Assembly (NCBI GenBank): GCA_947493265.1
Contig: CANLQL010000004.1
Span: 620,001 to 684,000 of the forward strand
Length of the DNA: 64,000 nt
Direction of reading: 5' to 3'
Origin: an uncultured Litoreibacter sp.
GTDB lineage: Bacteria; Pseudomonadota; Alphaproteobacteria; Rhodobacterales; Rhodobacteraceae
A program made the translations under genes and the position numbers. This document shows positions 21,694-24,193 of the stretch, one piece after another. The stretch's first letter is position 1; each line of letters starts with the position of its first letter. The notes under the pieces were generated by a model. The model saw only the letters and a program-made list of their open reading frames with translations, was not told the origin of the DNA and ran no database searches.

Positions 21694-21723
21694 GGGGTCA
21701 AATAAGCACTTATTTGCCGCCCC
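21694..21723. terminator. Hairpin between leuA and mreB, possible terminator
   Basis: There is a perfect 7-bp inverted repeat CAAATAA/TTATTTG with a 4-base loop (21699-21716). Outside a small internal loop it is flanked by GGGG (21694-21697) and CCCC (21720-21723), which can extend the stem. No U-run follows on either strand, so termination without Rho is uncertain. The position, just downstream of the leuA stop and upstream of mreB, favours a boundary element. Confidence 0.4.
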
Positions 21724-21740: not shown

Positions 21741-23300
21741 CTACGACACGTCTTTGTAGGAAACTTCCGCAACATCAGGGCCTGACTTCTCACGCCGGAT
21801 GACAAGACGGTTCAAAGCGTTGATATACGCTTTGACCGAAGCGACGACGGTATCCACATCAGCCGATTGTCCGGTTGCGATCTTGCCGTGTTCCTCCAGA
21901 CGCACCGACACCGTGGCTTGCGCGTCTGTGCCTTTTGTCACTGCATGCACCTGATAAAGCTGCAATTTCGCTTCATGTGGGAACAGTGATTTGACAGCGA
22001 CAAATGCCGCATCGACTGGACCATCACCGGTCGCGCGGACTGCGTGTTCTTCGCCACCGATCACAAGCGTCATGTCTGCGGATTTTTCCAGATCCATCCC
22101 ACAAGAGACTTTCAAAGCCTTCAATTGGATATGGTCTTCGACATCTTCCCCTGTTTGCATCAATGCGATCAGGTCCTCGTCGTAGATTTCCTTTTTCTGA
22201 TCAGCCAAGGCTTTGAAGCGAACGAAAACGTCTTTGAGCTGATTGTCCCCCAGATCAAACCCCAGATCCGCCAGCTTTGAGCGCAAGGCCGCCCGACCGG
22301 AATGCTTGCCCATAACGATATTTGTTTCGGTCAGGCCCACATCTTCAGGGCGCATGATCTCAAACGTTTCCGCGTTTTTCAGCATACCGTCTTGATGAAT
22401 GCCACTTTCATGGGCAAATGCATTCTTTCCCACGATGGCCTTGTTGAACTGCACCGGGAACCCGGCGACAGAGGCAACGCGCCGGGAAATGTTCATAATT
22501 TTGGTTGCATCGATGCCAGTTTGGTACGGCATGATGTCATTGCGCACTTTCAACGCCATCACGACTTCTTCGAGCGCTGTATTGCCCGCGCGCTCCCCCA
22601 AGCCATTGATTGTACACTCGATTTGGCGTGCACCCGCTTCAACCGCTGCAAGAGAGTTCGCCGTCGCCATGCCCAGATCGTTATGGCAATGGGTTGCAAA
22701 AATAATCTCGTCCGCGCCCGGCACCTTTTCCAACAGCATCGCGATCAGGGCCGCGCTTTCACGGGGGGCCGTGTAGCCGACTGTGTCGGGAATATTGATC
22801 GTCGTGGCACCTGCTTTGATCGCGATTTCGACAACCCGGCACAGGTAGTCATCTTCGGTCCGTGTGGCGTCCATCGGCGACCACTGAACGTTGTCGCACA
22901 GGTTGCGGGCGTGGCTGACCGTCTCGTGAATGCGATCCGCCATTTCGTCCTTGTTCAGGTTCGGGATGGCACGGTGCAAAGGCGATGTGCCGATAAAGGT
23001 ATGAATGCGCGGGGCTTTGGCGTGTTTGACCGCTTCCCAGCAGCGGTCGATATCCTTGAAGTTGGCCCGCGCCAATCCGCAGATCACTGCCGACTTCGCC
23101 TGTTTGGAGATTTCGCTGACCGCTTGAAAATCCCCTTCGGAGGCGATCGGGAAACCGGCTTCGATGATATCGACGCCCATTTCGTCCAGCAGCCCGGCGA
23201 TTTCCAGTTTTTCTGCATGGCTCATCGTTGCGCCCGGAGATTGCTCTCCGTCGCGCAAGGTCGTGTCAAAAATGACGACGCGGTCTTGGTCTTTGGTCAT
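21741..23300 (-). CDS. leuA: 2-isopropylmalate synthase
   Basis: This 519-residue enzyme performs the first committed step of leucine synthesis: acetyl-CoA plus 2-oxoisovalerate to 2-isopropylmalate. The N-terminal TIM barrel has the signature DTTLRDGEQSPGATM near residue 12 and the metal-binding HCHNDLG followed by GLGERAGNTALEEV. A GKHSGRAALRSKL linker motif leads into the C-terminal leucine-binding regulatory domain (residues about 390-510). The full length suggests normal feedback inhibition. The ATG at 23300 has an AGGA site 8 bases upstream. Upstream lies a leucine-rich leader peptide gene with alternative hairpins, indicating transcription attenuation by leucine supply. Confidence 0.96.
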   Translation of the reverse strand: MTKDQDRVVIFDTTLRDGEQSPGATMSHAEKLEIAGLLDEMGVDIIEAGFPIASEGDFQAVSEISKQAKSAVICGLARANFKDIDRCWEAVKHAKAPRIHTFIGTSPLHRAIPNLNKDEMADRIHETVSHARNLCDNVQWSPMDATRTEDDYLCRVVEIAIKAGATTINIPDTVGYTAPRESAALIAMLLEKVPGADEIIFATHCHNDLGMATANSLAAVEAGARQIECTINGLGERAGNTALEEVVMALKVRNDIMPYQTGIDATKIMNISRRVASVAGFPVQFNKAIVGKNAFAHESGIHQDGMLKNAETFEIMRPEDVGLTETNIVMGKHSGRAALRSKLADLGFDLGDNQLKDVFVRFKALADQKKEIYDEDLIALMQTGEDVEDHIQLKALKVSCGMDLEKSADMTLVIGGEEHAVRATGDGPVDAAFVAVKSLFPHEAKLQLYQVHAVTKGTDAQATVSVRLEEHGKIATGQSADVDTVVASVKAYINALNRLVIRREKSGPDVAEVSYKDVS

Positions 23301-23337
23301 TGGTTTGTTCCTGATGTTCTTAGCTTTGCGTTTGGTC

Positions 23338-23382
23338 CGGCGCTGATACCCCCTGAGCGGTCGCGCCGAATGGCACGCTCAG
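23338..23382 (-). promoter_or_regulatory. Putative leuA attenuator: mutually exclusive hairpins
   Basis: Reading the minus strand, hairpin A pairs CTGAGCG (23376-23382, overlapping the leader stop codon) with CGCTCAG (23353-23359). Three further pairs (one G-U) extend it to 10 bp. Hairpin B pairs CGGCGC (23363-23368) with GCGCCG (23338-23343) and uses part of the loop of A, so the two exclude each other. Another copy of CTGAGCG lies at 23405-23411 inside the leader gene. A ribosome stalled at the Leu codons would leave A free to form; one at the stop codon would mask A and permit B. No U-run follows B, so the terminating mechanism is open. The pairing is seen in the sequence; the regulation is inference. 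Confidence 0.6.
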
Positions 23383-23453
23383 AGGCTGCTAAGAAGTAGA
23401 AGCGCGCTCAGGCCCAAAGCCTGACGGGATGCGATATGATTTTGCGCTGTCAT
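23379..23453 (-). CDS. leuA leader peptide
   Basis: This 24-codon ORF starts with ATG, ends in TGA and lies 78 bases upstream of leuA. The peptide ends LGLSALLLLSSL: seven of its last 12 residues are leucine, including four in a row encoded by CTT CTA CTT CTT. This is the hallmark of leucine attenuator peptides. The stop codon lies inside one arm of a hairpin (see the attenuator entry). No ribosome site precedes the ATG. A good -10 box ends only 7 bases upstream, so transcription probably starts at the ATG itself and the leader mRNA would be leaderless, as known for the trp leader of Sinorhizobium. Confidence 0.75.
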   Translation of the reverse strand: MTAQNHIASRQALGLSALLLLSSL

Positions 23454-23460
23454 GGTCGCG

Positions 23461-23466
23461 AATATA
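23461..23466 (-). promoter_or_regulatory. -10 box of the leuA leader promoter
   Basis: The minus strand reads TATATT, five of six matches to TATAAT, and ends 7 bases before the leader peptide ATG at 23453. No good -35 box is found at 16-18 bases, only TTTTCT or CTTTTC. The spacing implies transcription starting at or very near the A of the ATG. Confidence 0.5.
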
Positions 23467-23536
23467 CCGGGCGATTTCGAAAAGAAAAGGCAAAATGCAC
23501 GTTGACCAACAGGTTCCGACGCTTACCTCGTCCTTC

Positions 23537-24193
23537 ATGAAAAGACACCTTATCATCGGAGCCTCTGGCGGTATCGGACGCGCAATCGCCCAGCAATTGT
23601 CCGGCGAGGTTATTGGTTTGTCCCGCAGCGGTGACGGATTGGACATCACTGACGAAGCGTCGGTCGCCCATCACATTGGTCGCCAGACTGGTACATTTGA
23701 CACGATCCTTGTCACCACTGGTGCGTTGGTCGTGGATGGGTTTGAGCCAGAAAAAACGATCAAGGCCGTCGATCCGGAAGCTTTGATGGGGCAGTTCATG
23801 GTAAACGCGATTGGGCCAGCTATGGTCTTGAAACACGCGATCCCTCTTATCCCGCGAGACAGGCGGTGCGTTTTCGCGGCGCTGTCTGCACGGGTTGGAT
23901 CCATCGGCGACAATGCAATCGGAGGCTGGCATTCCTACCGAACAGCGAAAGCCGCCCTAAATCAATTGATCCATACCAGCGCGATAGAATTGGCGCGAAC
24001 ACACAAGAAAGCCATCGCTGTCTGCCTACATCCTGGCACTGTTAAAACCGACTTCACTGCAAAATACGCTGCCCGTCACAAAACTGTTCCCGCCACTGAA
24101 GCCGCCTCAAACTTGATTGGTGTGCTAGAGGGTCTCACCCCTGAGCAGACCGGCCAATTTTTTGACTATTCCGGCGCGCAGGTGCCTTGGTGA
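23537..24193 (+). CDS. Short-chain dehydrogenase/reductase (CsgA-like)
   Basis: This 218-residue SDR starts at the ATG at 23537, right before the Rossmann motif LIIGASGGIGRAIAQQL. Downstream are NAIGPAMVLKHAIPL, the catalytic Ser region FAALSARVGSIGDN, and the YRTAKAALNQL motif (Tyr-x3-Lys). HPGTVKTDFTA follows it. An upstream in-frame ATG at 23495 is possible. The gene overlaps the photolyase gene as GTGA, so the two are translationally coupled, and it is divergent from leuA. The substrate is unknown. Close relatives next to photolyase genes in Rhodobacterales suggest a link to light or oxidative stress, which is inference. Confidence 0.85.
   Translation: MKRHLIIGASGGIGRAIAQQLSGEVIGLSRSGDGLDITDEASVAHHIGRQTGTFDTILVTTGALVVDGFEPEKTIKAVDPEALMGQFMVNAIGPAMVLKHAIPLIPRDRRCVFAALSARVGSIGDNAIGGWHSYRTAKAALNQLIHTSAIELARTHKKAIAVCLHPGTVKTDFTAKYAARHKTVPATEAASNLIGVLEGLTPEQTGQFFDYSGAQVPW

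Follow-up and report, generated by a model that had tools for sequence, protein, structure and literature searches.

The enterobacterial leader leuL (Rfam RF00512) is a Leu-rich leader before leuA, where the position of the ribosome selects the RNA fold and the terminator carries a U-run. Mycobacteria possess leaderless poly-cysteine uORFs, which contain codons of the regulated amino acid and lack a clear terminator; to our knowledge neither a pseudoknot nor a stem between codons and the Shine-Dalgarno sequence (SD) of the kind reported below has been described for them.

For Actinobacteria a LEU element has been predicted without settling how it works (Seliverstov et al. 2005, PMC1262725). 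According to that paper the leader contains a run of Leu codons, which form a base stem with the SD of leuA, and the RNA further has a pseudoknot and an alternative hairpin; a regulatory protein is favoured as the effector. The paper also relates that codon mutations in the leuA leader of Streptomyces coelicolor were without effect or had an effect inconsistent with classical attenuation. In Sinorhizobium meliloti rnTrpL/trpL has a leaderless leader and its mRNA begins with AUG, according to the part of PMC10117765 available. A literature search by title and beginning of the abstract, with subscription papers (e.g. Vitreschak et al. 2004) outside its reach, yielded no description of the element in Alphaproteobacteria, and the available parts of PMC4833913, PMC3766115, PMC2573895 and PMC2864571 contained no passage on leuA that we could find.

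We analysed a leuA locus in a stretch of 64,000 nucleotides, called the window throughout. The gene and the region behind it comprise:

21741..23300, minus strand: leuA, 2-isopropylmalate synthase (NCBIfam NF002087 and TIGR00973 above cut-off; Pfam HMGL-like, LeuA_dimer and HCS_D2)
21694-21723, minus strand: inverted repeat GGGGCGGCAAATAAGTGCTTATTTGACCCC without a U-run, between leuA and the next downstream gene

Apart from the LeuA of the window itself (100% match), the genome had no close copy, the next match being at 33%. The inverted repeat is possibly the end of the leuA transcript, and the ORF downstream of leuA is one that we take to resemble mreB. Upstream of leuA the following features were noted:

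23379..23453, minus strand: leader ORF of 24 codons, MTAQNHIASRQALGLSALLLLSSL, from the sequence and the ORF list, with Leu run and stop kept in relatives; probably leaderless
23461..23466, minus strand: -10 box TATATT, which ends 7 nt upstream of the leader ATG
23484..23489, minus strand: -35-like CTTTTC, 17 nt upstream of the -10 box
23433..23438, minus strand: CATATC, at nt 16-21 of the predicted mRNA; the motif recurs in many leaders at this spacing from the 5' end

The leader ORF lies 78 nt from leuA on the minus strand. A sequence-only reading of this DNA had claimed seven Leu among its last 12 residues and a TATATT ending 7 nt before its ATG; sequence and ORF list confirmed the former, and the latter is present at 23466-23461. 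The C-terminal end reads LGLSALLLLSSL, and the seven Leu codons in order are TTG, CTG, CTT, CTA, CTT, CTT and CTC. CUU or CUA accounted for 49% of the leader Leu codons and for 10% of those in leuA, an enrichment that fits a sensitive sensor. The same reading had the leader overlap the 5' region of the divergent SDR gene, whose longest ORF starts at ATG 23429 (plus strand). This start is apparently not common to relatives: residue 37 is Met (ATG 23537) in 21 of the 22 non-self matches listed, the 22nd begins at residue 39, and the residues ahead of residue 37 look unconserved. The longest ORF of the SDR gene therefore probably begins too far upstream, with 23429-23536 (plus strand) as the surplus part. 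An overlap of the leader with the SDR gene is thus most likely wrong, and we rejected it.

leuA was found in 21 of 21 genomes of the genus and in 197 of 199 of the family. We read the 90 family genomes at the top of these 197 by similarity of LeuA to that of the window, and 88 of them contained the element by fixed criteria (Leu-rich ORF, stop TGAGC and the 3' arm of hairpin A, A3); the two misses showed a weaker form by eye. All 20 genus loci with a readable 5' region had the element. Among the named loci, i.e. the best 80 of the genome collection, it was present in 48 of the 51 loci L053-L103 (one was cut, one a variant, one without), while 4 of the 29 loci L104-L132, mostly from outside Rhodobacterales, passed the fixed anchors. 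Altogether 192 loci were gathered. A leuA-like 5' end was present in 190, three of them paralogues; 179 had a Leu-rich ORF plus hairpin, 158 passed the stop and A3 anchors, and 154 were distinct. Alignment A1 comprised 67 of 133 non-redundant elements, chosen for similar length, and a covariance model, R1, was built from 67 family sequences with the flanks included. In a phylum sample not chosen by LeuA, R1 matched 35 family genomes, with one family genome lacking a match. The genome of the window had one copy of the element; a second copy was rejected, as R1 gave a single match at E up to 10. The conserved RNA element upstream of leuA is real and widespread in the family, and the Leu codons and hairpins of the sequence-only reading recur in relatives.

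The -10-like box was defined as TANNNT with at least 4 of 6 positions matching. Such a box was present 3-15 nt upstream of an in-frame start in 111 of the 154 distinct elements. Its end was located 6-8 nt upstream of the start in 92 of these 111 (7 nt in 54, 8 nt in 30 and 6 nt in 8), while every other distance occurred in at most 6 loci. In the 91 loci aligned on the -10 box the -35 hexamer was C67 T100 T95 T71 T45 C74 (per cent). A consensus scan of 22900-24000 detected no promoter-like site. With the same rule the fixed spacing was absent in leaders of other alphaproteobacterial groups, where a box at 3-15 nt was seen in 8 of 24. Because the boxes sit at a fixed distance from the leader start, leaderless initiation is well supported by the comparison of loci and transcription most likely starts at the leader AUG, as had been surmised from the window alone.

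The CATATC-like sequence kept its position relative to the 5' end and not to the Leu run. Codon 6 of the leader was His in 50 of 91 and codon 7 Ile in 55 of 91 loci. At codon 6 His was encoded by CAT in 45 and by CAC in 5 cases, while elsewhere CAC was at least equally common. CATAT was found in 43 of 91 leaders, about half being without the motif. The pattern suggests that CATATC is a nucleotide motif.

Downstream of the Leu run two helices had been claimed, hairpin A from CGCTCAG and CTGAGCG, and helix B from CGGCGC and GCGCCG with use of the loop of A. Both are present:

23376..23385, minus strand: 5' arm of hairpin A, CCUCUGAGCG, which holds the leader stop UGA (23381-23379)
23350..23359, minus strand: 3' arm of hairpin A, CGCUCAGGGG, based on pair counts in relatives
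23363..23368, minus strand: 5' arm of helix B, CGGCGC, in the loop of A; its GGCGC alternatively pairs GUGCC (23376-23372)
23338..23343, minus strand: 3' arm of helix B, GCGCCG, based on conservation, pair counts and a shuffle test

Hairpin A is longer than claimed, with 10 pairs including one G-U between CCTCTGAGCG (23385-23376) and CGCTCAGGGG (23359-23350) in DNA letters. In relatives its 5' arm pairs with CGCUCAGRGG, and the loop of A pairs with a downstream GCGCC to give B. In the alignment of relatives both helices were kept with covariation; 98.8% of the cells of A and 93.5% of those of B were paired (67 sequences). When the downstream stretch in the window was shuffled with its dinucleotides preserved, a helix as good as B arose in 2 of 300 cases. 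GCGCCC occurred downstream of GGGCGC in 17 of 21 loci vs 10 of 129 others, and over all six-base classes 74 of 150 loci had a perfect partner vs 23.2 expected. A 7-mer test gave 60 of 150 in the own stretch vs 26.6 expected, a comparison partly spoiled by picking GCGCGC/GCGTGC as the 5' arm. The duplex energy of B in the own stretch beat the mean of the others in 117 of 154 loci.

The upper stem of A, GUGCC/GGCGC, was paired in 99.4% of cells with zero double changes. RNAalifold, unprompted, returned solely A with this upper stem and neither B nor helix C introduced below. The sequence-only reading had A and B as competitors. It was right that B uses the loop of A, yet the two need not compete, because B pairs that loop with a downstream segment; by their base pairing A and B can form together as a pseudoknot. 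The competitor of B is the upper part of hairpin A, GUGCC/GGCGC, which uses the same bases. UGCC at 23372-23375 (minus strand), directly after the leader stop, is nearly invariant beyond what the three helices need; it can pair GGCG in the upper stem of A.

The hairpin logic of A and B was incomplete, in that it missed a helix C, in which the Leu codons pair with sequence ahead of leuA:

23388..23395, minus strand: 5' arm of helix C, UUCUUAGC, Leu codons into the following Ser codon; covaries with the 3' arm
23317..23324, minus strand: 3' arm of helix C, GCUAAGAA, which ends 16 nt upstream of the leuA ATG
23308..23312, minus strand: SD-like AGGAA of leuA, of which AGGA can pair UUCU (23401-23398) by duplex prediction

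This UUCU lies in the upstream Leu codons, and its predicted pairing with AGGA would extend helix C. In relatives the 3' arm reads GCUAAG(AA/GA) and lies close to where the next gene begins. In the window C was equalled in 5 of 300 dinucleotide shuffles of the downstream stretch. We assayed C independently of the alignment by comparing the own downstream stretch with the stretches of loci that have another core. GCUAAG was found downstream in 59 of 92 loci with core CUUAGC vs 3 of 62 with other cores, GCUUAG in 5 of 12 with core CUAAGC vs 2 of 142 others, and CGUAAG in 3 of 6 with core CUUACG vs 0 of 148 others; the 7-mer UACUAAG occurred in 4 of 5 of its own class vs 0 of 149 others. With G-U allowed, six-base pairing of C was present in 83 of 154 loci vs 15.8 expected from the sequences of other classes. 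Several small core classes had few or no six-pair helices (CUUACC 0 of 4, CUAACA 0 of 3, CUAAUC 1 of 6), and core CUUAGU paired with the own stretch in 2 of 6 vs 76 of 148 with stretches of others, through G-U. The duplex energy of C in the own stretch beat the mean of the others in 121 of 154 loci.

In the 67 sequences 75.9% of the cells of C were paired; its outermost pair (columns 22-129) formed in 13 of 67 only. A, B and C together reached 89.5% in alignment A1 vs 36-47% for slid versions. Cells with double changes numbered 68 for A, B and C vs a shuffled mean of 21.8, and 0 of 500 shuffles were as high; these counts were made without a family tree, and kinship of sequences inflates such counts. 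Pairs with any double change amounted to 8 vs a shuffled mean of 6.0 (44 of 500), which is not clearly above the shuffles or one slid version. In columns 22-27, which are mostly two Leu codons, 33 of 33 double changes were in third positions. The codons thus continue to specify leucine, and their wobble bases change together with the bases that they pair with upstream of leuA; the sequence comparison shows a double constraint on the Leu codons by coding and pairing.

Where C lies relative to the next gene differed between loci. With leuA as the first gene the 3' arm usually ended 16-22 nt upstream of the start, just before the SD (60 of 110 placed loci), and a second group had it 8-9 nt upstream (15 of 110). 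C overlapped the SD in 34 of the 110 and otherwise ended upstream of it, the window included. In 15 of 154 loci (L006, L008, L012, L023, L039, L142 and others) the distance from the leader stop to leuA exceeded 200 nt. Where a different gene came first and both C and a start could be assigned, C overlapped the SD in 12 of 12 and the arm ended 5-9 nt before the start, which was taken as the first ATG/GTG within 25 nt after C, a rule that narrows these distances. The 3' arm of C goes with the ribosome-binding site of the first gene, as judged from these positions. A similar small protein was encoded between element and leuA in 6 of the 7 distant loci listed; the single one tested was Cupin_2.

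We folded the leaders with and without a stalled ribosome, in calculations that take in neither pseudoknot nor kinetics. In 127 leuA-first loci C formed in the nested ensemble of the ribosome-free state with a mean of 9.7 expected pairs. Placing a ribosome on the last Leu codon removed C and A. The SD then became more open in 63 and less open in 34 loci, and the wider site more open in 93 and less open in 14. The SD opened by more than 0.1 in 11 of 12 another-gene-first loci (mean unpaired 0.23 to 0.56 in constrained folding) and did likewise in 22 of 25 leuA-first loci whose C ends at most 12 nt from the start (0.34 to 0.64), so that release of the SD is predicted for 33 of these 37 loci, all with C near the start. 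For the placement of C and for this constrained folding the 3' arm was located by complementarity, which partly presets the low accessibility of that arm in the ribosome-free state. In 75 loci of the type of the window the C arm opened with the stalled ribosome, and the SD barely changed (mean 0.62 to 0.64; opened by more than 0.1 in 22, closed in 13). SD opening was not predicted for the window itself (0.59 to 0.63). In such loci control would act on the region upstream of the SD under the 30S subunit, or on another step such as Rho.

Taken together we consider it probable that the element is a leucine-responsive attenuator of leuA, has the layout of the LEU element and acts mainly on translation. 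The leader, the promoter distance, helices A, B and C and the double constraint on the Leu codons emerge from the sequence comparison; we infer leucine as the signal, C as the repressor and initiation at leuA as the controlled step. The mRNA would begin at the AUG of the leader ORF. When leucine is plentiful, ribosomes would pass the Leu codons, terminate at the UGA inside hairpin A and depart. On the vacated leader A would fold and its loop would pair downstream to B, and the emptied Leu codons would pair with GCUAAG, which lies immediately upstream of the ribosome-binding site of the next gene or covers it. This pairing (C) would lower initiation. When leucyl-tRNA is short, a ribosome waiting on the Leu codons would block C, and leuA would be translated. 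The operons with an inserted gene and C over the SD of that gene point to control of translation. We know of no experiment for this organism.

Where transcription might be stopped was searched for separately. A scan of 22900-24000 found no terminator-like site, and no U-run follows helix B in the window, as the sequence-only reading had remarked. At least 5 T within the 8 nt right after hairpin A were present in 1 of 154 loci; the following 70 nt ahead of the gene contained such a run in 10 of 154, and T made up 13% of that stretch. We rejected an intrinsic terminator; the sequence-only reading had likewise named action on translation or by Rho as possibilities. In a Rho-based control of elongation, which we rate as rather unlikely, formation of C with leuA untranslated, or formation of the A/B pseudoknot, would let Rho stop transcription before or within leuA, and a stalled ribosome would prevent this. 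The lack of an intrinsic terminator in the scan and the 154 loci would suit it, as would the SD of the window, which is not predicted to open and suggests that another step may be the target; moreover, the available text of PMC1262725 raises Rho-dependent termination for terminator-less cysteine leaders. On the other hand, control of initiation would lead one to expect C at or close to the ribosome-binding site, and that is where it is found, operons with a different first gene included.

By analogy with the proposal for the LEU element, the pseudoknot might be the binding site of a regulatory protein and the leader ORF incidental, which we regard as improbable. The compact fold of A, B and C, the near-invariant UGCC after the stop and the preference for a protein in the seen portion of PMC1262725 speak for this explanation. 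Yet the codons stay leucine where wobble bases change with C, CUU and CUA are enriched in the leader and uncommon in leuA, and the start lies at a fixed distance from the promoter; all three suggest that the leader is translated.

Classical attenuation of transcription by a terminator and an antiterminator hairpin, on the leuL model, is very improbable. The Leu-rich leader before leuA and hairpins with common bases would fit, but the scarcity of U-rich stretches after A and in the next 70 nt does not, and the Rfam Leu leader was not matched. Rfam at gathering scores identified only tRNA in the whole window, and around the leader no family matched at E up to 2, RF00512 included, so that a known Rfam leader was rejected. 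The claim of a Leu attenuator of leuA stands as to an attenuator-type leader, while its classic hairpin logic is changed by the pseudoknot and C. That leader translation merely raises leuA expression, e.g. by reinitiation (proposed for leader genes in PMC4833913) or RNA protection, and senses no leucine is highly unlikely, as the Leu run sits in a constant position with respect to A and C across the 154 loci.

What began as an isolated hairpin sighting has become a widely conserved RNA element without an Rfam match. The Leu wobble bases are tied to bases before leuA, and synonymous changes can separate codon identity from RNA pairing. The operons with a gene inserted ahead of leuA and C over the SD of that gene are a natural experiment.

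Beyond the family a looser rule (Leu-rich ORF with the stop region in a hairpin) identified 25 of 57 loci, mostly of other alphaproteobacterial groups. Nineteen of the 25 ended in Pro-stop with arms like CCCCUGAG/CUCAGGGG; L107 and L230 look spurious, L126 and L240 duplicate each other, and two more, L118 and L109, belong to the Rhodobacterales type. R1 at E 0.01 matched 24 of 387 genomes of the class, 6 in the home family and 18 outside. Of the latter, 16 matches were directly before leuA on its strand and two were partial hairpin matches without leuA. Outside the class two R1 matches at E of about 0.008 among 397 phylum genomes equal the chance expectation.

Three actinobacterial leuA loci were taken from plasmid records, L247 (Microbacterium), L249 (Nonomuraea) and L250 (Streptomyces plasmid). 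In L247 and L249 the Leu codons are followed by CUUAGCUGCC; both loci further show a 12-pair hairpin A, a stem of Leu codons on the SD and, by eye, a poor -10-like hexamer (3 of 6) that precedes the ATG by 6-7 nt. The Leu-codon/SD stem has 10 pairs in L247 (1 of 300 shuffles as good) and, corresponding to C, 7 pairs in L249 (76 of 300 as good); helix B of L247 was equalled in 93 of 300 shuffles. Within 330 nt upstream of the match L250 lacked a leader containing LLL. The R1 match to L249 (E 5.5e-5) keeps register as far as the leuA AUG; L250 was not matched by R1. With L247 it gave E 0.24 in a 22-kb search of seven plasmid-record loci, where a chance-like match in L253 (E 0.074) ranked ahead. 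Judged from these sequences, the rhodobacterial and actinobacterial elements may well descend from a common ancestor. Tentatively, and as a possibility that we would not yet call probable, Actinobacteria and Alphaproteobacteria may have in common an old leucine sensor, coupled to distant leuA genes, in which pyrimidine-rich CUU/CUC Leu codons of a leaderless mRNA without a terminator serve as a repressing internal anti-Shine-Dalgarno that a hungry ribosome displaces.

Compared with known systems, the element shares with leuL the Leu-rich leader before leuA and, on the proposed mechanism, a choice of RNA fold set by where the ribosome sits. Unlike leuL it has no terminator or U-run and no RF00512 match, and it has C near the ribosome-binding site and a pseudoknot. 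Like the mycobacterial poly-cysteine uORFs, it is probably leaderless, carries codons of the regulated amino acid and has no clear terminator, with leucine in the place of cysteine. The S. meliloti trpL is likewise a leaderless alphaproteobacterial amino-acid leader but concerns tryptophan and trpE, where transcription attenuation yields an sRNA (PMC10117765). The closest likeness in layout is to the LEU element, with the same position upstream of leuA, a Leu-run leader, a pseudoknot and an alternative hairpin. The phyla differ, and the LeuA proteins of the window and Microbacterium are only 28% identical. The base stem of the LEU element is on the SD, while the rhodobacterial C ends upstream of the SD in most leuA-first loci; the leader stop is in the 5' arm of A in Rhodobacterales and in the loop of A in L247 and L249. 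The leaderless promoter spacing is seen in Rhodobacterales and is unmentioned for the LEU element in the available portion of PMC1262725. We would classify the element as the alphaproteobacterial form of the LEU element, which extends to a second phylum a layout predicted in 2005.
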